The translations under genes were made by a program, and so were the position numbers. 64,000 nucleotides of DNA from an uncultured Bacteroidales bacterium (GTDB lineage Bacteria; Bacteroidota; Bacteroidia; Bacteroidales; Bacteroidaceae): contig CACZXN010000001.1 in NCBI GenBank assembly GCA_902785075.1, positions 92,784 to 156,783 of the forward strand. The letters are read 5' to 3'. Every line of letters starts with the position of its first letter. The first letter of the stretch is position 1. Shown piece after piece: positions 1-25,713 of this stretch. Under the pieces are notes generated by a model that did no database searches, was not told where the DNA came from, and saw only the letters and a list, made by a program, of their open reading frames with translations.

Positions 1-1
1 G

Positions 2-3000
2 ATTCATCGTGAGGTAGAGGGTGCAGGACTGACATTGTCGCATGTACGTAACGTCCCTGTCAACTCTGACATTCTAGGTGAGGCTTCTGCAGCTACGGAG
101 CCTGATATCATTCAGTTGTTTATCACGGGTGTGAATGACGTGGAGCGGTTCGAGACCGACCTGTATCTGCTTCGCAAGCATATCGAGCAGAAGATTCAAG
201 ACAAGGATTTTTATATTGTATCGTTGTCGAGTCGGGTGATTATCTACAAGGGCATGCTGACTTCCACTCAGCTTCGCGAGTATTATCCCGACTTGAGCAA
301 TCCGTTCTTTACAAGTGGAATGGCGATTGTCCATTCGCGTTTCAGCACGAACACATTCCCAACTTGGTCGCTTGCCCAGCCGTTCCGTATGTTGTCACAC
401 AATGGTGAAATCAACACTATTCGTGGCAATCGTGGTTGGATGGCAGCACGTGAGAGTGTGCTCTCATCGCCGGCTTTGGGCGACGTGAAGGGTATTCATC
501 CGATTATTCAGCCCGACATGAGCGACAGTGCTTCGTTCGATAATGCTCTGGAGTTCTTTGTCCGTTCAGGAATGTCTTTGCCTCATGCCATTTCGATGAT
601 GGTACCTGAGTCGTTCAACGACTTGAATCCTATCAGCGACGAGTTGAAGGCTTACTATGAATATCACTCCATCTTGATGGAACCTTGGGACGGTCCGGCT
701 GCCCTGTTGTTCTCGGATGGTCGATATGCTGGCGGAATGCTCGACCGAAACGGTCTGCGCCCATGTCGCTATCTTATTACCGAGGATGGTATGCTCATCG
801 TGGCTTCAGAAACCGGTTGCCTGAAGGTTGATCCAGGACTGATAAAAGAAAAGGGTAAGTTGCAGCCTGGCAAGATCATGATGGTCGATACGGAGGATGG
901 AACCATCTACACGAACGATGAAATCAAGCTGAAACTGACTCAGCAATGTGAATACAGCCGTTGGTTGCATACAAACCGCATCGAGTTGGGTAAGTTACAT
1001 AGCGGAAGGAAGGTGGAGAACGGTGTGGACGACTTCACACGCAAACTGCGTGGCTTTGACTTCACGCGTGAGGATGTAGATAAGGTGATTGTACCGATGT
1101 GTGTAAATGCTCAGGAGCCGCTCACCTCAATGGGAAACGACACTCAGTTGGCCGTACTTTCCGACCGTCCGCAGCTACTCTTCAACTATTTCCGTCAACA
1201 GTTTGCACAGGTGACCAACCCACCTATCGACCCTATCCGCGAGGAGTTGGTGATGTCGCTCACAGAGTATATCGGAGCTGTAGGTATGAACATACTGACA
1301 CCCAACGAGTCGCATTGCAAGATGGTGCGTCTGCCACAACCTGTTTTGACAAATACAGAGTTGGATATCCTTTGCAACATTCGCTACAAGGGTTTTAATA
1401 CAGAGAAACTATCCATCCTGTTCGATGCCGACAAAGGTGAAGAGGGAATGCGTCAAAGACTCGAAGAGCTATGTAGTGAGGCGGAGAAATCGGTTGATAA
1501 GGGTATCAACTACATCATCCTTTCCGATCGCGGCATTGACGGCGAGCATGCTGCCATTCCTTCATTGTTGGCCGTAAGCACCATTCATCATTATCTGATT
1601 TCCGTACAGAAACGTGTCCAGACAGCTCTTATTGTTGAGAGTGGTGAGATACGTGAGGTGATGCATGCAGCCCTTCTGTTGGGTTACGGAGCAAGTGCCA
1701 TCAACCCTTATATGGCCTTTGCAGTCATCGATGATTTGGTAAAGCGTGGCGAGGTTCAGCTCGACTATGCTACAGCAGAACGCAACTACATCAAAGCCAT
1801 CGATAAGGGTTTGCTGAAGATTATGAGCAAGATGGGTATCTCAACCATACGTTCATATCGTGGAGCCAAGATTTTCGAACCGGTAGGACTGAGCGAGTCC
1901 TTACTTCGCAACTATTTCGGAACAGCCTCATCGACTATCGGAGGAATAGACCTGAAGCAGATTGCAACTGATGCCGTACGCATGCACCAGCAGGGCTATG
2001 CATCCGAGCCAGACGATGTATTGCCCTTCATCGGACAATATTCGTTCCGTAAGGATGGTATTCTGCATGCCTGGACACCCGATGCGATTGCTACGCTACA
2101 GTTGGCAACCCGTCTGGGCAGTTATAAGAAATTCAAGGAGTTCACCCATATCATCGACGATGTCGAGCAACCTTTGTTCCTGCGTCAGTTCTTCCGTTTC
2201 AAGTCCAACCCCATCCCGTTAGAGGAAGTGGAACCAGAGGAGCAAATCATGCATCGTTTCATCGGAGCAGCCATGTCGTTCGGAGCAATCAGCAAGGAGG
2301 CTCATGAGGCGATTGCCTTAGCGTTGAACAAGATAGGCAGTCGAAGCAACACAGGCGAAGGAGGCGAAGACGAAAGCCGTTTCAAGGGTGAGGTCGAAGG
2401 AGTGTCGCTCTCGAGTGCCGTGAAACAGGTTGCATCAGGACGATTTGGCGTAACGACTGAATATCTGGTGAACGCCAAAGAGATACAAATAAAAGTGGCA
2501 CAAGGAGCCAAGCCTGGCGAGGGAGGACAATTGCCTGGCTTCAAGGTCAACGAAATCATAGCGAAGACTCGTCACAGCATACCAGGTATCTCACTCATCT
2601 CGCCTCCACCTCATCACGACATCTACTCCATCGAGGACCTTGCACAGCTGATTTTCGACCTCAAGAACGTAAATCCCGAAGCCCAGATCAGTGTGAAACT
2701 CGTAGCAGAGAGCGGTGTGGGCACCATTGCTGCAGGAGTAGCAAAAGCAAAAGCCGACATCGTAGTCATTTCGGGTGCCGAAGGAGGCACAGGCGCATCA
2801 CCTGCCTCATCAGTACGCTATGCAGGCGTTTCGCCCGAGATTGGTTTGGCTGAGACACAGCAGACCCTTGTGCTCAACGGTTTGCGCGACAAGATAGAGA
2901 TTCAGACCGACGGGCAATTGAAGACCGGACGCGACATCGTCAGCATGGCACTTCTCGGAGCAGGTCAGTTCGGCTTCGGAACCATCCAACTCATCGTGCT

Positions 3001-4159
3001 CGGCTGTGTGCTCATGCGTAAGTGTCACACCAACAGCTGTCCCGTCGGGGTAGCCACTCAAGACCCACGTCTGCGTGCCCACTTCCTCGGACGGTCGGAA
3101 TACCTCGTAAACTACTACACCTTCCTCGCACGCGAGGTACGTGAGTATATGGCAGAGATGGGATTCCGACACTTCGACGATATGATAGGACGTACCGACA
3201 TGATCGAAATCGACCAGTCACGATGTACAGAGAAAACCCGCACACTCGACTTCACACGTCTGCTCTCGCTCATCGACAACGGGCATCCGCTTCATGCCGT
3301 TTCACACCCTATACATAAAATCTACGACGTACTCGACCGCGATATGATGATGGCAAGTCAGGAAGCCCTCAACGCACATCAGAACGTAACACTCCATTAC
3401 GACATCGTCAACACCAACCGAGCTGTCGGAGCCATGATTTCCGGTCAGATAGCAAAAACATACGGAGGTGAGGGACTGCCCGAAGGTACCATCAACATAC
3501 ACTTCAAGGGGTCGGCAGGTCAGTCGTTCGGAGCGTTCCTCATGCGAGGCATCTCGTTCACCCTCGAAGGCGAGACCAACGACTACATGGGCAAGGGTCT
3601 CTCGGGAGGATGCATCAGCCTCTATCCGCCTCGACACTCCAAGTTCCAGGCAGCTGACAACATCATCGCCGGCAACACACTACTCTACGGAGCAACTAGC
3701 GGAGAGGTGTATATCAACGGCAGGGTAGGCGAACGATTTGCCGTCCGCAACTCAGGAGCCACAGCTGTTGTCGAAGGTGCAGGCGACCATTGCTGCGAAT
3801 ACATGACAGGCGGACGAGTCGTCGTGCTGGGCACCACAGGTCGCAACTTCGCAGCCGGTATGTCGGGCGGACTCGCATACGTGTGGGACCGAAACCACGA
3901 CTTCGACTACTATTGCAACATGGACATGATCGAACTCAGTCTCATCGAGGAGAAAGCACGACGCGACGAACTCCACGAACTCATCCGACGTCATTACCTG
4001 CGTACAGGCTCACCGCTCGCCAAACAGATGCTCGACGACTGGAACCACTATGTCGAACAGTTCATACAAGTCACTCCTATCGAATACAAACGAGTGCTGC
4101 ACGAAGAAGCGATGCGACAACTCGACCAGAAAATCAACCACATACAGAGAGACTATTAA
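2..4159 (+). CDS. gltB: Glutamate synthase large subunit, 5' end cut by window edge
   Basis: Large subunit of glutamate synthase, which takes ammonia from glutamine and combines it with 2-oxoglutarate. The frame is open from base 2 through a TTG at 35, so the gene begins outside the window; that TTG is not the start. The N-terminal nucleophilic Cys of the class-II glutaminase domain is therefore not seen. What remains includes the rest of the amidotransferase domain (SHNGEINT, GGMLDRNGLRP), the central domain, the FMN-binding synthase domain (GEGGEDESRF, GGTGASP), the 3Fe-4S motif C-x5-C-x4-C (CVLMRKCHTNSCPVG) and the C-terminal beta-helix with G-x-x-x-x-G repeats. gltD follows after a 142-base repeat-filled spacer, so the two subunits are probably co-transcribed. 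Family assignment is secure. Confidence 0.96.
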   Translation: MHREVEGAGLTLSHVRNVPVNSDILGEASAATEPDIIQLFITGVNDVERFETDLYLLRKHIEQKIQDKDFYIVSLSSRVIIYKGMLTSTQLREYYPDLSNPFFTSGMAIVHSRFSTNTFPTWSLAQPFRMLSHNGEINTIRGNRGWMAARESVLSSPALGDVKGIHPIIQPDMSDSASFDNALEFFVRSGMSLPHAISMMVPESFNDLNPISDELKAYYEYHSILMEPWDGPAALLFSDGRYAGGMLDRNGLRPCRYLITEDGMLIVASETGCLKVDPGLIKEKGKLQPGKIMMVDTEDGTIYTNDEIKLKLTQQCEYSRWLHTNRIELGKLHSGRKVENGVDDFTRKLRGFDFTREDVDKVIVPMCVNAQEPLTSMGNDTQLAVLSDRPQLLFNYFRQQFAQVTNPPIDPIREELVMSLTEYIGAVGMNILTPNESHCKMVRLPQPVLTNTELDILCNIRYKGFNTEKLSILFDADKGEEGMRQRLEELCSEAEKSVDKGINYIILSDRGIDGEHAAIPSLLAVSTIHHYLISVQKRVQTALIVESGEIREVMHAALLLGYGASAINPYMAFAVIDDLVKRGEVQLDYATAERNYIKAIDKGLLKIMSKMGISTIRSYRGAKIFEPVGLSESLLRNYFGTASSTIGGIDLKQIATDAVRMHQQGYASEPDDVLPFIGQYSFRKDGILHAWTPDAIATLQLATRLGSYKKFKEFTHIIDDVEQPLFLRQFFRFKSNPIPLEEVEPEEQIMHRFIGAAMSFGAISKEAHEAIALALNKIGSRSNTGEGGEDESRFKGEVEGVSLSSAVKQVASGRFGVTTEYLVNAKEIQIKVAQGAKPGEGGQLPGFKVNEIIAKTRHSIPGISLISPPPHHDIYSIEDLAQLIFDLKNVNPEAQISVKLVAESGVGTIAAGVAKAKADIVVISGAEGGTGASPASSVRYAGVSPEIGLAETQQTLVLNGLRDKIEIQTDGQLKTGRDIVSMALLGAGQFGFGTIQLIVLGCVLMRKCHTNSCPVGVATQDPRLRAHFLGRSEYLVNYYTFLAREVREYMAEMGFRHFDDMIGRTDMIEIDQSRCTEKTRTLDFTRLLSLIDNGHPLHAVSHPIHKIYDVLDRDMMMASQEALNAHQNVTLHYDIVNTNRAVGAMISGQIAKTYGGEGLPEGTINIHFKGSAGQSFGAFLMRGISFTLEGETNDYMGKGLSGGCISLYPPRHSKFQAADNIIAGNTLLYGATSGEVYINGRVGERFAVRNSGATAVVEGAGDHCCEYMTGGRVVVLGTTGRNFAAGMSGGLAYVWDRNHDFDYYCNMDMIELSLIEEKARRDELHELIRRHYLRTGSPLAKQMLDDWNHYVEQFIQVTPIEYKRVLHEEAMRQLDQKINHIQRDY

Positions 4160-8985: not shown

Positions 8986-10581
8986 AAATACATCTTTGTC
9001 ACAGGCGGTGTGGTTTCCTCGTTAGGGAAAGGCATCATTTCGGCAAGCATAGGCAAGCTGCTGCAAGCACGCGGCTACAAAGTGACCATTCAGAAGTTCG
9101 ACCCCTACATCAACATCGATCCAGGCACACTCAACCCCTATGAGCATGGCGAATGCTATGTGACATGTGACGGCATGGAGACAGACTTAGACCTCGGCCA
9201 TTACGAACGGTTCACAGATATCCAAACCACACGAAACAACAGTTTCACGACAGGTCGAATCTATCAGGCTGTAATCGAGAAAGAGCGTCGAGGCGACTAT
9301 CTTGGCAAGACCATTCAAGTGGTTCCGCATATCACCGACGAAATAAAGCGAAGCATCCAGGCAAGTGCCGAACACGAGCATTTCGACTTTGTCATCTCAG
9401 AGATTGGCGGCACCATCGGTGATATCGAGAGTGCACCTTTCATGGAAGCAATCCGTCAACTTCGTTGGGAGATGGGACATAATGCCGTGAACATCCACCT
9501 TACCTACGTGCCCTACCTCCATGCAGCAGGCGAGTTCAAAACCAAACCCACACAACACTCCGTGAAGGAACTGCAGCGTATGGGTATTCAGCCCGATATC
9601 CTCATTCTCCGAACCGAGCATCATCTGGACGAAAGCATTCTGCACAAAGTAGCCTCGTTCTGCAACGTGGAGCCGACGTGTGTGGTGCAAAGCGAGGATA
9701 TGCCAAGCATCTACGAGGTACCCGTCAACATGCAGCAACAGGGACTCGACATCGCCATATTGCGAAAGCTCGGAGCACCCCTTCAGCTCGAATCAGGAGG
9801 ACTCGTGTCATGGTATCATTTCCTGCATCTTCAGCAGGAAGCCAAGGAGGAAGTGTCAATAGGCCTGATAGGCAAGTACAACCTTCAGGATGCCTATAAG
9901 AGCATCCGCGAGAGCCTCAGTCTGGCAGCCATCTATCATGGACGGAAGGCAAACATCCGGTTCGTCAACAGCGAAACGCTAACAGCAGCGAATGTGGGGC
10001 GGCAGCTCGAAGGCATGGCAGGAATCGTCATCTGTCCAGGATTCGGCAGTCGTGGCATCGAGGGGAAAATTATCGCAGCCGAATACAGTCGCACCCACGA
10101 CATCCCCACCTTCGGCATCTGCTTGGGAATGCAGATGATGGTAATCGAATTTGCCCGTAACGTACTCGGCTATAAGGATGCGAACACCACCGAGATAGAC
10201 ACCAACACACGCCACAATGTCATCGACATGATGGAAGACCAGAAAAGCATCTCGCAAAAGGGAGGAACCATGCGACTGGGAGCCTACGATTGTGAACTCA
10301 TCGCAGGCAGTCGTGCCCGTGAAGCATACGAAGATCGCCCTATAATCACCGAGCGTCATCGACATCGTTATGAGTTCAATAATAAATATAAGGAAGAATA
10401 TGAGGCGAGTGGCATGAAATGTTCAGGCGTTAATCCCGCAACCCATCTGGTCGAGATCGTAGAGATACCCGTCCTGAAGTGGTATATCGGCACCCAGTTC
10501 CATCCCGAGTACACCTCAACAGTGCTGCATCCCCACCCCCTGTTCATGAGTTTCATCAGCGCCTGTGTCGGAAAACAATAA
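8977..10581 (+). CDS. pyrG: CTP synthase
   Basis: Converts UTP to CTP using ATP and glutamine; 534 residues, the usual length. The N-terminal amidoligase domain opens with FVTGGVVSSLGKGI, a P-loop-like motif, followed by KFDPYINIDPGTL. The C-terminal class-I glutaminase has the nucleophile elbow FGICLGMQ and the His-Glu pair in QFHPEYTS. The start ATG at 8977 agrees with the family N-terminus (MDTKYIFVTGG). It is one of five glutamine-dependent amidotransferases encoded in the window. The stop lies 10 bases before the ATG of the following carA-carB gene. Confidence 0.97.
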   Translation: MDTKYIFVTGGVVSSLGKGIISASIGKLLQARGYKVTIQKFDPYINIDPGTLNPYEHGECYVTCDGMETDLDLGHYERFTDIQTTRNNSFTTGRIYQAVIEKERRGDYLGKTIQVVPHITDEIKRSIQASAEHEHFDFVISEIGGTIGDIESAPFMEAIRQLRWEMGHNAVNIHLTYVPYLHAAGEFKTKPTQHSVKELQRMGIQPDILILRTEHHLDESILHKVASFCNVEPTCVVQSEDMPSIYEVPVNMQQQGLDIAILRKLGAPLQLESGGLVSWYHFLHLQQEAKEEVSIGLIGKYNLQDAYKSIRESLSLAAIYHGRKANIRFVNSETLTAANVGRQLEGMAGIVICPGFGSRGIEGKIIAAEYSRTHDIPTFGICLGMQMMVIEFARNVLGYKDANTTEIDTNTRHNVIDMMEDQKSISQKGGTMRLGAYDCELIAGSRAREAYEDRPIITERHRHRYEFNNKYKEEYEASGMKCSGVNPATHLVEIVEIPVLKWYIGTQFHPEYTSTVLHPHPLFMSFISACVGKQ

Positions 10582-10591
10582 TAAAAACACT

Positions 10592-13528
10592 ATGAAGAAA
10601 GAAGCAATACTGATATTGGAAGACGGAACCACAATGCGTGGGTGGTCGTTCGGGGCAGAAAGAAATACGGAGGGCGAAGTGGTGTTCAACACCGCAATGA
10701 TGGGCTATCCCGAAAGCCTGACCGACCCCAGCTATGCAGGACAGATACTAGTGACTACCTTTCCCCTGATTGGCAACTATGGCGTACCCGATATAGGTGG
10801 AACACCATTACCCCAGTTCATGGAGAGCGAACGGATACATGTGAAAGGACTCGTTGTAGCAGACTATAGCGAACACTATTCACATTGGAACGCAAGGCAA
10901 TCGCTCAGCAATTGGCTCAAGCGCGAGGGCATCCCAGCCATCTCGGGAATCGATACACGACGACTTACCAAACTACTGCGCGAACACGGAGTGATGCGAG
11001 GTCGATTTGAAATGGAAGAAGGTAGAGGGAAGATGGAAGAGGAAGGAAGTATGTGTTTTGATTATAGCTCTACTAACTGGGTTGAAACCGTCAGTTGCAA
11101 AGATGTGATTACCTACAAATCCGAAAACTGTCAACTGTCAACTCCCAAACGTGTCGTTCTCGTTGATTGTGGTGTGAAGGCCAATATCATTCGTTGTCTG
11201 CTCAAACGAGGAGTGGAGGTGATTCGTGTGCCTTGGGATTACGACTTCAACCAATTAGAGTTCGACGGACTCTTCTTAGGAAACGGACCGGGCGACCCTG
11301 AGCAATGCGGAAAAACAATTGAACACATTCGTACTTTCTTAAGTAACAAGGAGGTAAAACCTCTGATGGGTATCTGCTTGGGAAACCAACTGCTGGCTCG
11401 AGCCGCAGGTGCTAAGACATACAAGTTGAAATACGGTCATCGCTCGCACAACCAACCAGTAATGATGGTGAACGGTTCTGGGTTCAGGGTTCATGACTCC
11501 TCAACCGTGAACAGTGAACCATTAACCATGAACCATAGATGCTTCATCACTTCTCAGAATCATGGGTATGCTGTCGATGCTTCGACGCTGCCAGACGACT
11601 GGGAGCAGTTGTTTGTGAATATGAACGACGGATCGAACGAAGGTATTCGCCACAAGACTCATCCTTGGTTCTCTGCACAGTTCCATCCCGAGGCTTGTTC
11701 CGGTCCTACGGATACTGAGTGGTTGTTCGACGAATTTGTAAAGCCCCTCTCCCCGCTCCCCCTTTATGGGGAGAGCCTCGCTTCGCTCGAAAACAACGTG
11801 CATCTTTCCCCCTCCATAGAGGGAGGGGTGCCCATAGGGCGGGGTGGGTCTGTCCTCATCCTTGGTTCCGGAGCCTTGAAAATAGGGCAGGCGGGAGAGT
11901 TCGACTATAGTGGCGCACAAGCGCTGAAGGCGTTGAAAGAGGAGGGGGTGAAATCGGTGCTTATCAATCCTAACATCGCAACCGTTCAGACCTCAGAAGG
12001 GGTGGCTGACAAAGTGTATTTCCAACCTGTAACTCCTGAGTTTGTGGAACGTGTCATCAAGAAAGAAAGGCCCGACGGCATCTTGCTGAGTTTTGGCGGA
12101 CAGACGGCTCTCAACTGCGGTGTAGAGCTTTATCGGAATGGGACGTTAGAGAAATATGGAGTCAAAGTATTGGGTACGCCTATTCAGGCTATCATCGACA
12201 CGGAAGACCGTGATAGGTTTGTGAAACGGCTCGACGAGATTGGCGTGAAGACCATCAGAAGCCAAGCATGCTGTTCAAAGGACGAGGTGCGTAGGGCTGC
12301 TGCCGAACTGGGCTACCCCGTCATCTTGCGTGCTGCATATGCGCTCGGTGGGTTAGGATCTGGGTTCTGCGAGCACGATGCTGAGCTGGAGGTTCAGGCT
12401 GAGGAAGCGTTCGCTTTCTCTCCGCAGGTATTGGTAGAGAAGAGTCTCAGGGGATGGAAGGAAATAGAATATGAAGTGGTGCGCGACCAATACGACAACT
12501 GCATCACGGTCTGCAATATGGAAAACTTCGACCCACTTGGCATCCATACGGGAGAGAGTATTGTGGTGGCTCCAAGCCAGACACTCACCAACAGCGAGTA
12601 TCATAAGCTTCGAGCCTTGGCCATCAAAATTATCCGCCACATCGGTATCGTAGGCGAATGTAATGTACAATATGCTCTCGACCCCAATAGCGAGGACTAT
12701 CGAGTGATCGAGGTAAATGCCCGACTGAGCCGTTCGTCGGCTTTGGCTAGCAAGGCTACGGGCTATCCTCTTGCATTCGTAGCAGCCAAACTGGGATTGG
12801 GATACGGACTGTTCGAGTTGAAGAACTCTGTGACGAAGACCACCAGCGCCTTCTTCGAACCTGCACTCGACTATGTGGTGTGTAAGATTCCGCGCTGGGA
12901 CCTTTCGAAGTTCCACGGAGTGAACCACGAACTAGGCTCAAGCATGAAGAGTGTGGGCGAGGTGATGGCGATTGGTCGCACTTTCGAGGAAGCCATTCAG
13001 AAAGGTCTTCGTATGATCGGACAAGGCATGCACGGCTTTGTAGATAACAAGGCTCAGCATGTGAACGATGTTCCCGCAGCCTTGCAGCATGCTACCGATA
13101 CGCGTATCTTCGTGATTGCGAAGGCTATGATGATGGGCTACTCGGTGGAGCAGATTCACACCCTAACAAAGATTGACGCTTGGTTCCTTCAGAAGCTCAA
13201 ACACATCATGAACATCAACGACCGACTCGGTGAGTACAAGTGGCTATCAGAGTATGCCTTAAATGCAGAACCTTCAGAACTGCTTGAATTCATCGAAGAG
13301 CCTGCCTTTGCTACATTGCTTCATGAGGCTAAAGTGTACGGATTCTCCGACTTCCAGATAGCACGAGCAATCGGACTCGAAAAAACAGACAACAACATGG
13401 AACGTGCCAGCCTTCGCATCCGTAAGTGGCGTGAGGAATTGGGCATCAAACCATCAGTCAACCAAATCGACACGCTCGCAGCTGAATATCCTGCACAAAC
13501 CAACTATCTCTATCTCACCTATTTATAA
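10592..13528 (+). CDS. Carbamoyl-phosphate synthase small subunit fused to the N-terminal half of the large subunit
   Basis: One 978-residue frame. Residues 1 to about 385 are CarA: a small-subunit domain, then a class-I glutaminase with the Cys262 elbow GICLGNQ and QFHPEA. Residues from about 423 to the end match only the first half of CarB: the carboxyphosphate ATP-grasp domain ([45 protein letters not shown]) plus the oligomerisation domain. The protein stops at YLTYL, where full CarB continues with YLTYNG or similar into the carbamate-kinase-like half and the MGS-like regulatory domain. Neither is found downstream, where dapF starts 5 bases later. The linker and several CarA inserts are repeat-derived. 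A GTG at 10565 would overlap pyrG, so the ATG at 10592 is preferred. A separate full CarB may exist elsewhere. Confidence 0.85.
11468..11536. repeat. GGTTCA-type repeat translated inside carA
   Basis: GGTTCTGGGTTCAGGGTTCATG and, 20 bases further on, its near-complement ending ACCATGAACC form an imperfect hairpin. The units match the spacer heptamers. It encodes an extra segment of about 20 residues between VMMV and [13 protein letters not shown], which are adjacent or nearly so in related CarA proteins as I remember them. Confidence 0.7.
11742..11858. repeat. Two G/C palindromic repeats forming the CarA-CarB linker
   Basis: Two C-run/G-run palindromes (CCCCTTTATGGGG at about 11760-11772 and CCCCCTCCATAGAGGGAGGGG at about 11809-11829) separated by a GCCTCGCTTCGCTCG hairpin. 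They replace the expected carA stop and carB start and are read through in frame as a roughly 37-residue linker. Confidence 0.75.
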
Positions 13529-18076: not shown

Positions 18077-20263
18077 TTAGTTGATAAACAGCAGCTCACG
18101 ATACTTCGGTAGCGGCCACAGGTCGTTATCAACCACCTCTTCGAGCTTGTCGATGGGGCGACGGATGGCGAAGAGCGACTCGGCTATGTCGTAGTAGGCT
18201 AGGGCTTTCGCGCGTTCGTCCTCTATCTTGTTGGCTGCCTTACGGGCTTCGACCATCGCTGCACACTTGGTGCGGATGTCCTCAATGAGTTTGGTGACTC
18301 GCTGGAGCAACGCCAGTTCGGTCTGAGCCATCGATTCGAAGTCGTCGGGATAGAGTGTCTTGAGTTGGGTGATGATGGTGAGCAGACGATTCTTATAAGC
18401 AAGGGCTGCAGGGATGATGTGGTTCTGCGCCATACGTCCCATCACGCGTGCCTCGATCTGCACTTTCTTCGTGTAAGTCTCCCACTTCACTTCGTTGCGA
18501 GCTTCAAGTTCAGGACGGGTATAGACTCCTGTCTGCTCGAACATCTCGACAGATGACGGTTTGGTGAACTCATCGAACATCAGCGGCACGCAGGTCTCGG
18601 TGTCCAGTCCGCGACGCTTTGCCTCTTCCTTCCATTCATCGGTATAGCCGTTTCCGTCGAAGCAAACGGTGTCGATGATGCTGGCGATAAGGGGCTTGAG
18701 TACATCCATGAAGGCGATATTCATAGGTTTGCCTGCTGCCATTTCTTTATCAACCTCTACCTTGAATGCTGTAAGCTGTTCGGCTACGGCGGCATTCAGC
18801 GTAGTCATGGCTCCTGCACAGTTGGCACTCGAACCTACGGCTCGGAACTCAAAGCGGTTGCCCGTGAAGGCAAACGGAGAGGTGCGGTTGCGGTCGGTGT
18901 TGTCGATGAATATCTCGGGTATCTCAACCAGTCCTACTGATGCTCCTTTCTTGCCTGCTATCTCGATCGGTGTGTCTGACGGTACTTCGAGCAACTTACG
19001 CAGCACGTTCGTCATGGTGTGTCCCAAGAAGGAAGATATGATGGCTGGAGGGGCCTCGTTGGCTCCCAAGCGGTGAGCGTTGGTTGCGGTAGCAATAGAT
19101 GCCTTAAGCAGGGCGTGATGCTTCTGAACGGCTACAAGCACATTGACGAAGAAGGTGACGAACTGGAGGTTGCCCATCGCGTCCTTACCTGGAGCGAGCA
19201 GCAGGGTTCCGGTATCGGTACCGAGCGACCAGTTGTTGTGCTTTCCGCTTCCGTTGATGCCTGCAAAGGGTTTCTCGTGGAGCAGAAGTACAAAGCCGTG
19301 CTTGCGAGCGATCTGCTGCATGAGATTCATAATCATCTGGTTCTGGTCGTTCGACAGATTGGTCTCTCCATAGATAGGTGCCAGCTCAAACTGGTTGGGT
19401 GCGACCTCGTTGTGACGGGTCTTGAGAGGAATGCCGTGACGATAGCCAGCTATCTCAACATCCTTCATGAACTCCATAACACGCGAAGGGATGGCTCCGA
19501 AGTAGTGGTCGTCCAGCTGCTGATTCTTCGACGACTCGTGTCCCATAAGGGTACGTCCTGTAAGCATGAGGTCAGGACGTGCTGCATAGAGGTCTTCATC
19601 GACAAGGAAATACTCTTGTTCCCATCCGAGATATGAAAAGACCTTACGCACCTTCGGGTCGAACATCTGACAGATGGGCACAGCTGCATCGCTGACTGCC
19701 TTGAGCGACTTCTTCAGCGGAGTCTTGTAGTCGAGCGCCTCACCCGTGTAGGAGATGAACACGGTAGGGATGCAGAGGGTGTCGTCCTGAATGAATACGG
19801 GCGAGGTAGGGTCCCAAGCCGTATAACCTCGTGCCTCGAAAGTGGCACGTATGCCTCCACTGGGGAATGAGCTGGCATCAGGCTCCTGCTGACTGAGCGA
19901 CTTACCGTCGAACTGTTCGAGCATACCACCCTTACCGTCGTACTCCATCAGGGAGTCGTGCTTCTCGGCTGTACCCTCAGTAAGCGGCTGGAACCAGTGA
20001 GTGACATGAGTGACTCCATGTTCCATAGCCCAGGTCTTCATCCCTTCGGCCACCTCGTCAGCAATAGCGCGAGTGAGCGGATGACCGTTGTCGATGCAGT
20101 CGATGAGTGCCTCATAGGTCTTTGAGTCGAGATACTTGTGCATGTTCTCGCGGTTGAACACCAATTCTCCGAAATACTTCGAAGTCCTTTCGGTCGGACT
20201 TTCGGCAGGAACTGCTTTCTTCTTGAACGCATCCTGAACCACGTCAAATCTCAGTTTGCTCAT
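18077..20263 (-). CDS. glnN: Glutamine synthetase type III
   Basis: Makes glutamine from glutamate, ammonia and ATP. At 728 residues it is the long type III form (GSIII), first described in Bacteroides, rather than the roughly 470-residue GlnA. Seen motifs are the N-terminal GSIII signature region (TSKYFGELVFN), the catalytic GINGSGKHNNWSLG at about 335, and FRAVGSSANCAGAMTTLNAA near 480. It is the last gene of the minus-strand unit glnK-amt-porin-asnB-glnN and has its own downstream terminator. The 223-base gap from asnB is filled with repeats and has no clear promoter. Control by the Asn/Gln leader attenuator upstream of glnK is a proposal, not shown. Confidence 0.96.
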   Translation of the reverse strand: MSKLRFDVVQDAFKKKAVPAESPTERTSKYFGELVFNRENMHKYLDSKTYEALIDCIDNGHPLTRAIADEVAEGMKTWAMEHGVTHVTHWFQPLTEGTAEKHDSLMEYDGKGGMLEQFDGKSLSQQEPDASSFPSGGIRATFEARGYTAWDPTSPVFIQDDTLCIPTVFISYTGEALDYKTPLKKSLKAVSDAAVPICQMFDPKVRKVFSYLGWEQEYFLVDEDLYAARPDLMLTGRTLMGHESSKNQQLDDHYFGAIPSRVMEFMKDVEIAGYRHGIPLKTRHNEVAPNQFELAPIYGETNLSNDQNQMIMNLMQQIARKHGFVLLLHEKPFAGINGSGKHNNWSLGTDTGTLLLAPGKDAMGNLQFVTFFVNVLVAVQKHHALLKASIATATNAHRLGANEAPPAIISSFLGHTMTNVLRKLLEVPSDTPIEIAGKKGASVGLVEIPEIFIDNTDRNRTSPFAFTGNRFEFRAVGSSANCAGAMTTLNAAVAEQLTAFKVEVDKEMAAGKPMNIAFMDVLKPLIASIIDTVCFDGNGYTDEWKEEAKRRGLDTETCVPLMFDEFTKPSSVEMFEQTGVYTRPELEARNEVKWETYTKKVQIEARVMGRMAQNHIIPAALAYKNRLLTIITQLKTLYPDDFESMAQTELALLQRVTKLIEDIRTKCAAMVEARKAANKIEDERAKALAYYDIAESLFAIRRPIDKLEEVVDNDLWPLPKYRELLFIN

Positions 20264-20271
20264 AATCTTAA

Positions 20272-20482
20272 AGCCCCCCTCTTATCCCCCGAGGGGGAAG
20301 ACCGTTACAGGGGCTTGGGTCTGGATTATTGTATTTGTGTTGGGGTTAAGTTGAAAATCCTAGTTAATTTACTATTTGACGATTTACTATTTACTATTGA
20401 CTATTGACCATTGATTATTGACTCCCCGCCCTAGAGGGAGGGGCAAGGGGGAGGGTCTGCTAGTGGGTCTGCTAGAGGGGCT
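20272..20482. repeat. Palindromic and ACTATTG-type repeats between glnN and asnB
   Basis: Two C-run/G-run palindromic elements (CCCCCGAGGGGG at about 20286-20297; CCCGCCCTAGAGGGAGGGGC at about 20425-20444) flank an AT-rich block of repeated ACTATTTAC/ACTATTGAC units. GGGTCTGCTAG is directly repeated near 20455-20476. No gene is seen. Confidence 0.8.
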
Positions 20483-20486
20483 CTTT

Positions 20487-22166
20487 CTAATACGCCTGCT
20501 CGTGTACTCCTTTCACGGCTCGTCCACTTGGATCGTTCATATTCTTGAACGCTTCGTCCCATTCCAAAGCGATTGCCGTGCTGCATGCTACGGATGCTTC
20601 CTGGTTCACACTTCGGGCAGCTGAGTCGCTTGGGAAATGCTCGGCAAAGATGGAGCGGTAGTAGTATTCCTCCTTGTTCAGGGGTGGGTTGATGGGGAAT
20701 CGCTCGGAGGCATGCGCCATCTGTTCGTCTGTCACAGCCTCGGATGTGATGCGCTTCAGCGTGTCAATCCAACTATAGCCTACCCCATCGCTGAACTGCT
20801 CCTTCTGTCGCCATGCTACACTTCGAGGCAGCATATCAGCGAAACCTTCACGAACCACACCTTTTTCGATGGTCGAACCTGGACACATCTTCAGTTCGGG
20901 GTTGACGGACATGGCTATGTCAAGGAATTCCTTGTCGAGGAAGGGAACTCGTCCTTCGATGCCCCAAGCCATGAGTGACTTGTTGGCTCGCAGGCAGTCA
21001 TAGAAGTGAAGCTTGGAGAGTTTACGTACGGTTTCCTCATGAAAGGCCTTTGAGTCGGGCGCCTTGTGGAAATACAGATAGCCTCCGAATATCTCGTCAG
21101 CTCCTTCGCCCGACAGCACCATCTTGATGCCCATCGAACGAATGACGCGAGCCAGCAGGTACATGGGTGTGGATGCACGAACCGTAGTGACATCATACGT
21201 CTCAGTATAGTAAATCACATCGCGGATAGCATCGAGGCCTTCTTGGATGGTGTAGTTCACCTCGTGGTGTACGGTTCCGATATAATCGGCAACCTCGCGT
21301 GCCTTAGCCAAATCGGGTGCACCCTTCAACCCTACAGCGAAGCTATGCAGGCGTGGCCACCAAGCATCGTGCTCGTCGTTCGTCTCTATACGCTTAGCAG
21401 CATAGAGCTTTGCGATGGCCGACACGACAGAACTGTCTAATCCGCCCGAGAGGAGTACCCCGTAAGGCACATCGCTCATCAACTGACGCTTCACAGCTGC
21501 CATCAGACCCTGCCGGACTTGACTGACTGCCTCAGTACGGTCGGAAGTGGCCCAATGCATGCCTTCGTACTTCATCCAAGGACGTTTGTACCAACGCTCA
21601 ATTCGGCAACCCGACTTGCTCGAACAGTAGTGGCCTGGAGGAAACGGTTCGTAATGCTCACACTGACCCTCCAAGGCTTTTAGCTCAGAGGCCACATAGA
21701 CGGTTCCCTCACTGTCGTGTCCGATATACAAAGGGATAACACCTATTGCATCGCGAGCCACAAGAAAGTCGTCTGTCTCAGCATCGTAGAGCACGAAGGC
21801 GAAGATGCCGTTCAACTTGTCGAGGAAGTCAACCCCATACTGCTCATAGAGTGCCAGGATGACTTCGCAATCCGACCCCGTCCTGTACTGATACTGAATG
21901 TCGGTCTCCATCCTCAGCAGCTGGTGATTGTAGATCTCGCCATTCACTGCCAGCACTTTCTTCCCGTCGGGCGAATAGAGGGGCTGACCGCCTGAAAGGG
22001 GATCGACGATTGCCAAACGTTCGTGTGAGATGACTGCATGGTCGCAGCTGTACATTCCACTCCAATCCGGACCACGATGACGAATCTTTGCCGACATCTT
22101 CAGCGCCTGCTCACGCTTCTGATGAGCATCACCCTTGATTTTTAATATTCCTACAAAACCACACAT
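20487..22166 (-). CDS. asnB: Asparagine synthase (glutamine-hydrolysing)
   Basis: Converts aspartate, glutamine and ATP to asparagine; 559 residues, normal for AsnB. Cys2 (MCGFVGIL) is the class-II glutaminase nucleophile exposed after Met removal, and NGEIYNH and RHRGPDWSG line the glutamine site. The synthetase half has the PP-loop SGGLDSSVVSA at about 240 and GEGADEIFGGY near 360. It lies between the porin and glnN genes on the minus strand. Having an asparagine-forming and a glutamine-forming enzyme in one operon fits the mixed Asn/Gln codon run in the leader ahead of glnK. Confidence 0.96.
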   Translation of the reverse strand: MCGFVGILKIKGDAHQKREQALKMSAKIRHRGPDWSGMYSCDHAVISHERLAIVDPLSGGQPLYSPDGKKVLAVNGEIYNHQLLRMETDIQYQYRTGSDCEVILALYEQYGVDFLDKLNGIFAFVLYDAETDDFLVARDAIGVIPLYIGHDSEGTVYVASELKALEGQCEHYEPFPPGHYCSSKSGCRIERWYKRPWMKYEGMHWATSDRTEAVSQVRQGLMAAVKRQLMSDVPYGVLLSGGLDSSVVSAIAKLYAAKRIETNDEHDAWWPRLHSFAVGLKGAPDLAKAREVADYIGTVHHEVNYTIQEGLDAIRDVIYYTETYDVTTVRASTPMYLLARVIRSMGIKMVLSGEGADEIFGGYLYFHKAPDSKAFHEETVRKLSKLHFYDCLRANKSLMAWGIEGRVPFLDKEFLDIAMSVNPELKMCPGSTIEKGVVREGFADMLPRSVAWRQKEQFSDGVGYSWIDTLKRITSEAVTDEQMAHASERFPINPPLNKEEYYYRSIFAEHFPSDSAARSVNQEASVACSTAIALEWDEAFKNMNDPSGRAVKGVHEQAY

Positions 22167-22232: not shown

Positions 22233-22934
22233 CTACAACCCGAAGCTCATTCCTACGACCAGATAGGCTTTCTGACTACAAGGATTGGCCGAGACTTCTC
22301 CGAAGATGGGGATGGAGAAAGAGTCTGTCACCTTTATGTCCTTCGATGCACGAACTGCCAGGTTGGTTACTGCAAAGCCGTTTGTGCCATAGAAATCAGT
22401 GGCATAAGGAACTGCTCCAACGGTAGCTGTCCAGTCACAAGTAGCGAGTTTGAAGGGGGCGGCAACCTCAAAATAACTGCTATAGGCGCGCTTGCCATCC
22501 TTGTTCACTCCATCGTTGCCTGAAATATTCGTGTACCACTGTGCACTTACCACTCCGAAATCGTAGCCGATGTTTGCTTCGAACACATGGTTTGTACCAT
22601 GGGCATCATACTTGAAGTAGCGATCCTGTGGATCAAGCCCTGCATTGAACCAATAGTCAGTAATGCCTATGTTCAGGCCTCCGATGGTATACCCGAGTGT
22701 GATATCAAACTCTTTCGTATCGGCAGGATCGGCAAGTCCTACACTTCCCCAAGCCGAGAGCGAAATGCCTTTATACTCCAAACCAAGTGTCGGTTGCAGG
22801 CTCACTCCTCCCAGATCTTGACCACGCCAAATATAACTACTTACGATGTCACTACCAATCGTTGTACTAATCTCTTGTGCCTCTACGGCCATTGTTGCTC
22901 CGCAGAGCAATATCATTGCAAATATCTTTTTCAT
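22233..22934 (-). CDS. Putative outer-membrane porin of the TorF/Gcw_chp type
   Basis: Protein of 233 residues with a signal peptide (MKKIFAMILLCGATMAVEAQ) and alternating beta-strands throughout, ending in the aromatic/hydrophobic C-terminal strand LVVGMSFGL. The motif DIVSSYIWRGQDLGGVSLQPTLGLEYKG matches the small putative-porin family often named TorF or CHP02001, as I recall it. It lies directly downstream of the ammonium channel gene, a pairing that suggests it passes ammonium or small nitrogen compounds across the outer membrane (inference). The spacer to asnB is 66 bases of AT-rich repeat. Confidence 0.75.
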   Translation of the reverse strand: MKKIFAMILLCGATMAVEAQEISTTIGSDIVSSYIWRGQDLGGVSLQPTLGLEYKGISLSAWGSVGLADPADTKEFDITLGYTIGGLNIGITDYWFNAGLDPQDRYFKYDAHGTNHVFEANIGYDFGVVSAQWYTNISGNDGVNKDGKRAYSSYFEVAAPFKLATCDWTATVGAVPYATDFYGTNGFAVTNLAVRASKDIKVTDSFSIPIFGEVSANPCSQKAYLVVGMSFGL

Positions 22935-22996: not shown

Positions 22997-24253
22997 TTAG
23001 TTATAACAACTCTCTCCATGTTCATAAATATCAAGACCTTCTTCCTCGATACGGGCATCCACACGGAGTCCATGCAGTTTCTTGATGCCGTAGAACAGGA
23101 TGAATCCACAACCTGCTGCCCAGAGGTCAATCATGAGGATACCGAAACACTCAGCTCCGAAGAAGCCCCAACCGCCGCCGTAGAAAGCTCCGTTCTCTGT
23201 AGCCAACAAACCTGTCATCAGGGTGCCAAGGATACCGCATACACCATGTACTGAGCTTGCACCTACAGGGTCGTCAATGTGGAGCTTGTGGTCGATGAAC
23301 TCAATGGCGAAGACCAAGACAGTACCGCAGACCAGACCGATGATAACGGCTCCAACAGGTGAAACAAGGTCGCAACCAGCTGTGATACCTACAAGTCCTG
23401 CCAAGATGCCGTTCAAGGTCAGAGAAAGTGATGGCTTACCGTATTTCAACCAAGTGACGAACATTGTTGCCACACCGCCAGCTACTGCTGCGAGGTTGGT
23501 TGTCAGGAATACATGGCTGATGGCCGTACGGTTCACCTCACCGCTTGCAGCCAACTGACTACCTGGGTTGAAGCCGAACCAACCTAACCAGAGAATGAAT
23601 ACGCCAAGAGCTGCAAGTGCCAGGTTGTGTCCAGGAATAGCACGGCTCTTACCGTCCTTACTATACTTACCAAGACGTGGACCCAATGCCATTGCACCGA
23701 CAAAAGCCAAGACGCCACCTACGCTGTGCACAATAGCAGAACCTGCAAAATCGTGGAACACATCGCCAAACGTCGACATCATGAATCCGTCGGCTGCATC
23801 GTTGCAGAGCCAACCGCCGCCCCAAGTCCAATGGCCTTCTACAGGATAGATAATCAGTGAGATAAAGGCGCTATAGACCAAATACATAGAGAACTTAGTG
23901 CGTTCGGCCATGGCTCCGCTCACGATGGTAGCAGCTGTGGCACAGAAAACTGTCTCGAAAATCAAGAAACCCTCTACTGGCAGGTCGCCCGAATAAAAGC
24001 TCAGGTCGCCCCAATTAGGTATACCGACGAATCCGCCGAGAATATCGCCTCCGAACATAAATCCGAAGCCTATAAAGAAGAACAACAGACTACCGAACAT
24101 AAAGTCCACAAAGTTCTTCATCAAAATGTTTGCCGCATTCTTACGACGAGTGAAACCTGCTTCGCACAATGCAAAACCTGGTTGCATCCAGAAAACTAAC
24201 ATGGCTGCCAATAGCATCCAAACTGTATCGAGTGATAAACCTATTTCGTTCAT
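22997..24253 (-). CDS. amtB: Ammonium transporter
   Basis: Inner-membrane ammonium channel of 418 residues with about eleven hydrophobic segments. The paired pore histidines fall in SAIVHSVGG and ASSVHGVCG. MQPGFALCEAGFTRRKNAAN near residue 23 is the typical first helix and loop. There is no separate signal peptide. It sits between glnK and the porin gene on the minus strand. In nearly all bacteria GlnK plugs AmtB when nitrogen is plentiful, and the glnK-amt pairing here supports that role. Confidence 0.96.
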   Translation of the reverse strand: MNEIGLSLDTVWMLLAAMLVFWMQPGFALCEAGFTRRKNAANILMKNFVDFMFGSLLFFFIGFGFMFGGDILGGFVGIPNWGDLSFYSGDLPVEGFLIFETVFCATAATIVSGAMAERTKFSMYLVYSAFISLIIYPVEGHWTWGGGWLCNDAADGFMMSTFGDVFHDFAGSAIVHSVGGVLAFVGAMALGPRLGKYSKDGKSRAIPGHNLALAALGVFILWLGWFGFNPGSQLAASGEVNRTAISHVFLTTNLAAVAGGVATMFVTWLKYGKPSLSLTLNGILAGLVGITAGCDLVSPVGAVIIGLVCGTVLVFAIEFIDHKLHIDDPVGASSVHGVCGILGTLMTGLLATENGAFYGGGWGFFGAECFGILMIDLWAAGCGFILFYGIKKLHGLRVDARIEEEGLDIYEHGESCYN

Positions 24254-24260
24254 ATTATTA

Positions 24261-24389
24261 AGCCTCCCCCTAACCCCCTACTCTAAGAGGGGGAACCCGA
24301 ACGGAGGTGCGGGGTTTGTGTTTGTGTTGTGTTGTTACATTTTTGGGGTCCCTAACTCCCCTCCATAGAGGGAGGGGTTGGGGGTGGCT
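24261..24389. repeat. Palindromic repeats between amtB and glnK
   Basis: Two C-run/G-run palindromes (CCCCTACTCTAAGAGGGGG at about 24277-24295; CCCCTCCATAGAGGGAGGGG at about 24358-24377) flank GTGTTTGTGTTGTG, which read on the minus strand is ACACAACACAAACAC. The same A/C motif occurs twice more between the attenuator and glnK. Confidence 0.8.
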
Positions 24390-24391
24390 CT

Positions 24392-24739
24392 TTACTTCTT
24401 GTCCCTTAAAACTGTGTCGCCGTGCTCACCCGTTCGGATGCTCCATGTGTCGATCATATCGCTCACGAAAATACGGCCGTCGCCTACCTCGCCAGTATGA
24501 GCCACTTTCAATATGACGTTGACTGTAGGTTCTACAAACTGGTCGCGGCACACAATTGTGATGGCCACACGCTCAATCACGTCAGTCGAATACTGCACGC
24601 CGCGGTAGATTCTCTCCTCACGGCTCTGACCGATACCATGAACGTTATGATACTCAAACCAGTTGATGTCCGACTCCAAAAGAGCCTCCTTCACATCCTC
24701 GAACCTCGTCTTTCGGATAATTGCTTCAATCTTTTTCAT
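24392..24739 (-). CDS. glnK: P-II nitrogen regulatory protein
   Basis: Trimeric P-II signal protein of 115 residues that senses ATP/ADP and 2-oxoglutarate and controls AmtB. The T-loop reads RIYRGVQY with Y45 and Y50, matching the Tyr46/Tyr51 pair of E. coli GlnB, so the uridylylation-type tyrosine is present. Whether it is modified here is unknown. The C-loop EVGDGRIFVSD and RTGE end are typical. It is first in the operon glnK-amtB-porin-asnB-glnN. Upstream lie, in order, a promoter box, a 40-codon Asn/Gln-rich leader ORF, a strong terminator and an A/C-rich stretch, so its expression is probably attenuated. Confidence 0.96.
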   Translation of the reverse strand: MKKIEAIIRKTRFEDVKEALLESDINWFEYHNVHGIGQSREERIYRGVQYSTDVIERVAITIVCRDQFVEPTVNVILKVAHTGEVGDGRIFVSDMIDTWSIRTGEHGDTVLRDKK

Positions 24740-24808
24740 GTTTTACCTTGTGTTTGTGTTGTGTTAATACTTAATGATTTTTCTCTGTGTTTGTGTTGTA
24801 GCTACAAA

Positions 24809-24840
24809 AAAAAGGCTGATTCTCTCGGAACCAGCCTTTA
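24809..24840 (-). terminator. Attenuator terminator hairpin ahead of glnK
   Basis: On the minus strand AAAGGCTGGTTC, loop CGAGA, GAATCAGCCTTT forms a 12-bp stem with one G-U pair, running straight into a run of eight T (three of them in the stem). It starts 34 bases after the leader ORF stop and ends about 66 bases before the glnK ATG. A terminator in front of the first gene, and not after the last, is the mark of an attenuator. The segment CTGGTTC of its 5' arm (24828-24834) is complementary to GAACCAG inside the leader ORF (24934-24940), a possible antiterminator. Confidence 0.88.
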
Positions 24841-24873
24841 CTTAATATTTAAATACTCTATTGTTCAGTCTTA

Positions 24874-24996
24874 CTATATGTTCATCCGACTGGTAGATTC
24901 ACACAACGAACAACAGAGAACCTGATTATTATTCTGGTTCTGCTGATTATTCTGATTATTATTCAGACCTACGTTGTATGTTCTTACGAATGACAT
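24874..24996 (-). CDS. Asn/Gln-rich leader peptide of the glnK-amtB-asnB-glnN operon
   Basis: A 40-codon ORF starting ATG at 24996 (MSFVRTYNVG...) and ending TAG at 24874. Codons 12 to 25 are all Asn or Gln: nine Asn (eight AAT, one AAC) and five Gln (all CAG). After that come Val-Leu-Cys-Cys-Ser and an ordinary tail. A TAAATTTG promoter box lies 27 bases upstream and a 12-bp intrinsic terminator starts 34 bases downstream, before glnK. This matches the architecture of trp/his-type leader peptides, with the control codons specifying the two amino acids whose synthetases (GlnN, AsnB) lie in the operon. The peptide itself probably has no other role. Function is inferred; the sequence layout is directly seen. 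Confidence 0.82.
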   Translation of the reverse strand: MSFVRTYNVGLNNNQNNQQNQNNNQVLCCSLCESTSRMNI

Positions 24997-25023
24997 TTTG
25001 TCGTGTTTGTTTGATTTCGGGTG

Positions 25024-25031
25024 CAAATTTA
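25024..25031 (-). promoter_or_regulatory. Promoter box for the leader-glnK operon
   Basis: Minus-strand TAAATTTG, an exact TAnnTTTG -7 element, 27 bases before the leader ATG. A TTGAC and a T-rich TTTTTC lie further upstream where a weak -33 element could be. A start of transcription about 7 bases downstream would give a short 5' end before the leader ORF. Confidence 0.65.
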
Positions 25032-25713
25032 CGACCATTTCCCGAAACAGAAAAACATTTTGTCAACTTTTTTCAAGAAATCCCTAATAAATTGACAAAT
25101 ATCAATAGTTCTTTTACAAAATAAGCGATAACTACCCTTTAATCACCTTTAACATTCCTGTTTCATAAAGGTTGTTTATTTTAGTCCCACACTGCGAATC
25201 AACCGTCCTTGTAATCCTCCCGACTCTTCCGATAGCTCCATACACGTCTTTCACCATTGGTGCTATAATGATTCTTATATTTATGCTATGTTCAACTCTA
25301 CTTCATCTCTACTATATCTCTAATTATAGAATTGGAGATGAATTGGAGATATGATGTGTAAAAAGTAAGGAGTTTTATTGAAATAACCTGATAGAATATA
25401 AAGAGACTTTAGGGATCACTTGCATAACACTGTGTGTAGATTTAGAAAAAACATCAAAAACAGATATTACCATTGTTTTTATTAGCCCCCCCCCTTACCT
25501 TCAATGGTCTTTGCACCCCCTTCGGTTCCCCCGTTATCGGGGGACAGAAACCCTCTAGGGCGGGGAGAAAATCGTAAATAAATCAAATGGTAAATAAATA
25601 GTCAATCGGAACATCTTGGAGCAGCGAGAACAGAAAGTCCCCCTCTATCTCCCCCCCTCTATGGGGAGGAAGGAAAGAGGAAAGAACGATAACGATAACG
25701 AATTGCTAATCTG
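25032..25713. other. Long intergenic region between divergent-side glnK leader and GH30 gene end
   Basis: About 680 bases with no convincing gene. 25032-25480 is AT-rich without obvious motifs apart from a short GGAGATGAATTGGAGAT direct repeat near 25335. From 25485 to 25680 lie C-run/G-run palindromes (CCCCCGTTATCGGGGG at about 25529-25544; CCCCCCTCTATGGGGAGG at about 25653-25670) and an AATCGTAAATAAATC / AATGGTAAATAAATAG repeat. The palindromes could end transcription of the operon arriving from elsewhere, but that is not shown. Confidence 0.6.

Follow-up and report, generated by a model that had tools for sequence, protein, structure and literature searches.

Candidate Gln/Asn leader-peptide attenuators upstream of nitrogen and glutamine operons in Bacteroidales

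A new ribosome-mediated attenuation system of nitrogen genes in Bacteroidales, with Gln and Asn as control amino acids, is well supported by our results, the geometry of its antiterminator being a candidate only. It was recognised before the glnK operon in a 64,000-nucleotide stretch from an uncultured gut Bacteroidales bacterium (hereafter the window), where an initial annotation had proposed an attenuator of that single operon. The locus very probably is a ribosome-mediated transcription attenuator with Gln and Asn control codons that belongs to a nitrogen and glutamine regulon. The initial proposal of a candidate attenuator is supported; the leader that it described is one of two in the genome and part of a multi-operon system.

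The promoter box, the 40-codon ORF, its run of 14 Asn/Gln codons, the terminator and the gene order were all recovered where the initial annotation had placed them (Table 1). The promoter, TTTT-N20-TAAATTTG, is of the -33/-7 type of Bacteroidota. The leader ORF encodes MSFVRTYNVGLNNNQNNQQNQNNNQVLCCSLCESTSRMNI, and its TAG codon is separated by 34 nt from the terminator stem, in which 24839-24828 pair with 24822-24811 (including one G-U pair) ahead of a T run reaching 24806. The TANNTTTG box was absent from the leader-glnK, glnK-amtB, amtB-porin, porin-asnB and asnB-glnN gaps and a terminator-like hairpin lies 3' of glnN, so that glnK-amtB-porin-asnB-glnN look like one transcript issued from the leader. 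A single glnK was found in this genome (85.5% complete).

Table 1. Positions of leader elements and associated genes in the window
Feature	Positions	Strand	Basis or remark
Promoter TTTT-N20-TAAATTTG	25024..25055	minus	TTTT 25055-25052, box 25031-25024, 20-nt spacing
Leader ORF, 40 codons	24874..24996	minus	ATG at 24996, TAG end at 24874; direct reading and recomputation
Control-codon run, codons 12-25, 14 consecutive Asn/Gln	24922..24963	minus	Codon statistics
Possible hairpin AGAACC/GGTTCT over the end of the run	24917..24941	minus	Includes most of GAACCAG; weakly supported
Outer stem, 24918-24908 with 24866-24856	24856..24918	minus	Predicted with the ribosome in the run
Display hairpin, loop carrying ACCAGTC	24877..24905	minus	Local folding
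ACCAGTC loop, candidate antiterminator strand	24888..24894	minus	Pairs with 24836-24830
Intrinsic terminator, 12-bp stem and T run	24806..24839	minus	Sequence and covariation
glnK (P-II), first gene of the operon	24392..24739	minus	Start at 24739; Pfam
amtB (ammonium transporter)	22997..24253	minus	Pfam
Porin-like outer-membrane protein	22233..22934	minus	Name from the initial annotation, Pfam match absent
asnB (asparagine synthase)	20487..22166	minus	Pfam
glnN (type III glutamine synthetase, GSIII)	18077..20263	minus	Pfam
gltB	1..4159	plus	5' end outside the window; family assignment
gltD, aminotransferase-like, purF-like, pyrG, carAB fusion, dapF-like	to 14379	plus	Follow gltB

When loci L001-L184 and the window (1,004,345 bases) were scanned in all six frames, 25 ORF segments had at least 11 Asn/Gln within 12 codons (19 with 12 and six with 11), and all 25 were leaders heading a glnK operon, including three duplicate pairs (window/L001, L002/L011 and L061/L183) and three cases with a porin gene between leader and glnK (L003, L004 and L010). 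The Asn/Gln run of the window leader is not a product of chance. Over the 59 leaders tabulated in this study, Asn and Gln made up 37% of in-frame codons, as opposed to 2.7% and 6.8% when the two remaining frames were read, with 501 Asn for 88 Lys and 324 Gln for seven His (351 for 71 and 242 for six among 43 peptides at most 85% alike). The leaders are related and were partly selected for Asn/Gln, hence these counts are not independent and binomial values derived from them are not probabilities. For comparison, genes of the window contain 4.1% Asn and 3.6% Gln codons.

The peptides themselves were unlike one another across relatives (e.g. MTRTYTYFSMVPTSKFQQQNQNNQNLNNQTLNACCVNLPVG versus MFIGFKNITTVQLNNNQQQNNQNQNNNQVPMVIPFDRSGM): Asn and Gln interchange while the surrounding peptide diverges. 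This bears on two other readings of the run. An Asn/Gln-rich nascent chain might arrest the ribosome in response to free glutamine, in a TnaC-like manner, for which a long Asn/Gln segment followed by a terminator would be appropriate; such an arrest peptide is nevertheless very unlikely, as the residue pattern is not conserved, Asn and Gln are swapped freely and both the N- and C-terminal parts vary between genera. Alternatively, the run might matter as A-rich RNA, either by binding a protein or Rho or as a simple AATAATCAG repeat, the ORF being incidental. The run is indeed A-rich and repeat-like, and a downstream ACCAGTCGGATGAAC element is kept as RNA across two reading frames. Yet, the Asn:Lys and Gln:His ratios given above are confined to one frame and codon order varies between genera, leaving this explanation extremely improbable.

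In the leaders, Asn was encoded by AAT in 390/501 cases and Gln by CAG in 304/324, compared to 105/348 and 210/308, respectively, in 14 genes of the window; leaders thus prefer AAT where window genes prefer AAC, which may slow decoding or avoid structure. Composition also varied with the gene downstream: gltB leaders were Asn-rich with few Gln and the two ATP-grasp leaders Gln-rich. Within the genus, GlnRS and AsnRS each scored above cut-off in 14 of 17 genomes and GatB in none of the 17. Direct charging with free Gln and Asn, not transamidation, is therefore what the codons should monitor.

Relatives were collected through GlnK/AmtB searches, which gave matches in 10/17 genomes of the genus, 146/301 of the family (at E<=1e-25) and 125/393 of the order, in addition to the best 80 taken from a named collection. 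Several genera had Asn/Gln leaders, located ahead of glnK itself or of a porin gene that precedes it. A set of 176 distinct 320-nt regions upstream of glnK comprised 31 with both leader and hairpin, seven with the hairpin only, four with an Asn/Gln-rich ORF only and 134 with neither. The four ORFs devoid of hairpin reached just 7/12 Asn/Gln. The initial annotation had proposed this alignment, expecting run and hairpin to be kept together, which these 31 regions bear out; it had also considered that hairpins retained without an Asn/Gln ORF would speak against attenuation; the seven solitary hairpins have other sequences, and the core proposal withstood this comparison. Together with the lack of a TANNTTTG box between hairpin and glnK, where a further promoter had been sought in the sequence, this co-occurrence supports the proposed attenuation.

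The large number of relatives without leader and terminator at glnK (134/176) counts against the proposed attenuation, although at least three of these regions (L003, L004 and L010) have a complete leader farther upstream, before the porin gene. In the window's own genus, leaders were absent from the fetched stretches of L005-L008. When a leader was present, the TANNTTTG box was found 17-31 nt upstream of its ATG in 44 of 59 cases (27-31 nt in 30); it was not found ahead of the ATG in three of the 59. Three of the leader-less loci (L005, L007 and L008) contain short direct repeats (GAGGATATCCTCAA; GACTGCGCACTCGC) between the TANNTTTG box and glnK. Gene order was leader-porin-glnK in L003, L004, L010 and L233, in place of leader-glnK-amtB-porin, so the porin accompanies the operon under control.

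A covariance model built from 27 leaders extended the distribution beyond glnK. With strong matches set at 48 bits or more, 65 leader places were found in 36/301 genomes of the family, belonging to four of 30 genera (g1, g218, g227 and g233). By position beside glnK or inspection of fetched loci, 64 of them were traced to a gene: glnK or porin-glnK (31), asnB (14), glmS (6), gltB (5), pyrG (4), glnN (2), purF (1) and ATP-grasp (1); the remaining one, L243, was not readable. The 59 tabulated leaders, which constitute the statistics set and partly originate from searches other than the covariance model, head glnK (22), asnB (13), glmS (6), gltB (4), porin-glnK (4), pyrG (3), glnN (3), ATP-grasp (2), purF (1) and amt (1); these labels were confirmed by tblastn and the families checked for representatives. 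Omitted from the set were near-duplicates or same-genome copies (L011, L125, L134, L145, L183, L219 and L231), L243 at a contig end, the glnK leaders L195, L199, L204, L205, L206 and L209, and the late additions L271 and L272; counts out of 58 further leave aside L248, whose element differs. With the exception of ATP-grasp, the first enzymes and transporters serve to produce, take up, regulate or use glutamine or ammonium. As the device precedes several glutamine-making or -using operons, it appears to work as a regulon.

The window's genome illustrates this multiplicity. Its second Asn/Gln leader (C1:92204-92374, i.e. 410-580 bp ahead of the first base of the window) heads gltB, and the two leaders flank one nitrogen island. 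Families were checked for gltB, gltD, purF-like, pyrG and carAB, the purF-like gene scoring below the purF cut-off; the aminotransferase-like and dapF-like genes behind gltB are putative assignments. Two leaders were also found inside each of the single loci L061, L229, L232 and L272. At most four strong copies were recorded per genome, nearly all preceding a glutamine-related operon. Such a distribution hardly suits a trans-acting small RNA having the terminator as its normal 3' end, a possibility raised by the discrete promoter-to-terminator unit of about 215 nt; since there is also no TANNTTTG box for glnK downstream, this interpretation is highly unlikely.

Outside these strong places, leaders of the candidate attenuator type were rare in the genomes searched. 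A tally of 169/301 genomes at E<=0.01 was rejected as a count of leader carriers because it includes many plain terminators, and among nine loci opened below 48 bits, L247, L249-L254 and L273 had no Asn/Gln leader, L248 alone having one. The order search matched 12/295 genomes, one being the window's own; in the 12 order loci scanned outside that genome, Asn-rich leaders were found only in L256 and L267, both from genome G243, where they precede amt and glnN. The phylum search matched 4/296 genomes, again including the window's own, and its three outside loci had no leader (L269 was a simple repeat). Both searches used strict filters by which weak matches are lost. Spread beyond the four genera thus seems limited within the genomes searched; it comprises G243 and possibly L037/L038 and L059.

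Conservation of the terminator was clear. Its stem was paired at 100% in 27 leaders and at 98.6% in an alignment of 60 that was fitted to this stem, and its covariation, which the initial annotation had suggested examining, was strong (none of 500 shuffles reached the score). A second conserved strand, ACCAGUC or a variant of it, is situated close to the stop codon and is complementary to the terminator 5' arm. Pairing between both covered 96.7% of cells on 27 leaders, where sliding left 4-50%, and 85.2% on 60 leaders, where sliding left 10-43%. This pairing is mostly invariant and its covariation beyond shuffles is weak: on the 60 leaders the score was reached by 490/500 shuffles and the number of cells with both sides changed (nine) by 7/500, while the corresponding values on 27 leaders were 345/500 and 43/500. 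A-U to G-C changes were observed in L037, L038, L240 and L246.

The initial annotation had chosen another strand, GAACCAG (codons 19-21 of the run, 24940-24934), assumed to pair linearly with CTGGTTC (24834-24828). Both motifs exist in the window, where they form seven perfect pairs, and GAACCAG was complete (7/7) in 11/27 leaders by alignment columns, gaps splitting some rows. At least six contiguous pairs with the arm could be formed from the longer Asn/Gln run in 39/58 leaders, which counts in favour of this strand and against ACCAGUC, but in 57/58 for ACCAGUC; the 19 leaders limited to five or fewer (one for ACCAGUC) include 11 of the 13 asnB leaders. Moreover, a ribosome past the middle of the run would cover GAACCAG. 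GAACCAG as the antiterminator is therefore improbable, and comparison of the leaders points to the ACCAGUC loop as the likelier one. The AGAACC/GGTTCT hairpin at the end of the run had 6/6 pairs in four of 27 rows and 5/6 in 15.

ACCAGUC is conserved as RNA whatever its reading frame: the window's genus has it within the ORF, whereas it straddles or follows the stop codon in several g218 leaders. Its centre falls between 14 nt before and 12 nt after the stop in 53/58 leaders, within reach of a ribosome terminating there. The centre was outside this interval in L227 (32 nt past the stop) and in four gltB leaders (32 nt ahead of it). Since a linear hairpin model gave no useful switch for the window leader, local hairpins were examined. 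With the element held open, local folds placed it in a closed hairpin loop in 58/58 leaders, which says little alone as shuffles expect 47; the folding energies had a median z of -1.9, with p<=0.05 in 31/58. Stems of this display hairpin vary by gene class (GTCCATC/GATGGAC before gltB and TATCAG/CTGATA before glnN, for example). At least six contiguous bases of the loop were paired with the arm in free folds of 36/59 leaders.

From this arrangement, we infer translation of the leader, ribosome stalling, antitermination and the signal as follows. With ample charged tRNA-Gln and tRNA-Asn, the leader ribosome would cross the run and reach the stop codon, where it would cover ACCAGUC and melt the display hairpin; the terminator would then form and the operon be off. 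Under a shortage of glutamine (or asparagine), the ribosome would slow in the run and the display hairpin could form ahead of it, its ACCAGUC loop pairing with the terminator 5' arm (GGCUGGU) and letting the polymerase continue into glnK-amtB-porin-asnB-glnN. Because the leader arrangement recurs before many glutamine-using genes, the slowed ribosome probably senses Gln/Asn shortage. Stem, loop and downstream arm are ordered as in an H-type pseudoknot; this topology, which the folding programs used exclude, has about even chances of being correct. The most inclusive reading, in which multi-copy attenuators with such a pseudoknot antiterminator would govern the whole Bacteroidales nitrogen/glutamine regulon (glnK-amtB, asnB, glnN, gltB, pyrG, glmS, purF and the ATP-grasp cluster) by reading tRNA-Gln/tRNA-Asn charging, is tentative and slightly less probable than its opposite.

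Plain secondary-structure models gave a mixed picture of the switch. At synthesis of the terminator 5' arm, the mean antiterminator probability was 0.33 for a ribosome located in the run and 0.17 for one at the stop, being higher in the run for 37 of the 59 leaders, lower for seven and about equal for 15; neither for the leader of the window nor for L002 did this model give a useful difference between both states. The complete terminator dominated in all ribosome states (medians 0.97), hence antitermination would have to be kinetic.

Classical ribosome-mediated attenuators regulate the trp, his, thr and ilv operons of Proteobacteria. They are also known from Actinobacteria (excerpts of PMC1262725) and, for hisS/hisZ, from Firmicutes (excerpts of PMC2965389). 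The window leader shares with them a short ORF, cognate control codons, a terminator and a competing strand near the ORF end. It differs by the joint presence of Gln and Asn control codons, by the many loci concerned, with nitrogen assimilation and glutamine amidotransferases as targets, and by a candidate antiterminator strand that is a hairpin loop. T-box riboswitches, which are not known to contain a translated leader, likewise sense tRNA charging and control terminators, while the glnA and Downstream-peptide RNAs (RF01739 and RF01704) are structured glutamine aptamers, in contrast to the predicted translated leader and terminator of the window system; Bacteroid-trp (RF01692) is presumably linked to trp, as its name indicates. 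The glutamine RNAs are reported as cyanobacterial in the cited part of PMC2864571, which also records Bacteroid-trp as a Bacteroidota 5' leader, and clues to leader-peptide attenuation exist for amino-acid operons of Flavobacterium psychrophilum (excerpts of PMC9723704). Both Bacteroidota cases resemble the window leader in phylum and as 5' leaders of amino-acid operons, but neither a Gln/Asn leader nor a nitrogen regulon is described in the cited parts of these two sources. Short ORFs within long 5' UTRs are mentioned for Bacteroides thetaiotaomicron (excerpts of PMC7366714). The LEU element of Actinobacteria combines, as here, a control-codon leader peptide with a candidate pseudoknot according to parts of PMC1262725; by comparison with these, the loop here would block a terminator.

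Searches of the window with Rfam models of the T-box, the glutamine riboswitches (RF01739/RF01704) and RF01692 gave no match above threshold; at E<=1, L20_leader and Thr_leader alone were recorded, both far below cut-offs. Among the matches listed in the open literature, there was no Gln/Asn leader-peptide attenuator, nor, likewise among those listed, any leader-peptide control of glnK, gltB, pyrG, glmS or purF.

To our knowledge, nitrogen-status sensing in Bacteroidota is poorly known. In Prevotella ruminicola 23, the counterparts amtB, glnK, asnB, glnN, gltB, gltD, pyrG and dapF belong to the genes that respond 4-fold or more to the supply of ammonium, the change reaching 38- to 69-fold for asnB, glnK, PRU_1977 and amtB (69-fold for amtB), as given in excerpts of PMC5552732. 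Sentences of this source disagree on whether limiting or excess ammonium is the inducer, and its excerpts name no transcription regulator for these genes. A Gln/Asn attenuation regulon, if true, would offer a concrete and testable mechanism in gut and rumen Bacteroidales. It would also carry ribosome-mediated attenuation beyond single biosynthetic operons, into a nitrogen response that spans several operons and relies on two control codons able to replace each other, perhaps along with a pseudoknot antiterminator.

Some additional features were recorded. The Gln-rich leaders of L214 and L248 precede a circularly permuted ATP-grasp gene, identified by a Pfam match in L214 and, in L248, by a tblastn match to the L214 protein, followed by an Alpha-E protein. 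In L248, the arm of the terminator deviates from the usual sequence, as does a possible complementary element close to the stop. Short repeats resembling CCCCTCCCTC...GGGGAG were noticed by eye in operon gaps of the window (24254-24391 and 20264-20486) and in the upstream flank (about 25480-25700). Finally, the ORF at 10565-13528 fuses the small subunit of carbamoyl-phosphate synthase to no more than the N-terminal half of the large one (matches 8-542 of 1052), and the dapF-like ORF begins six bases past its end.
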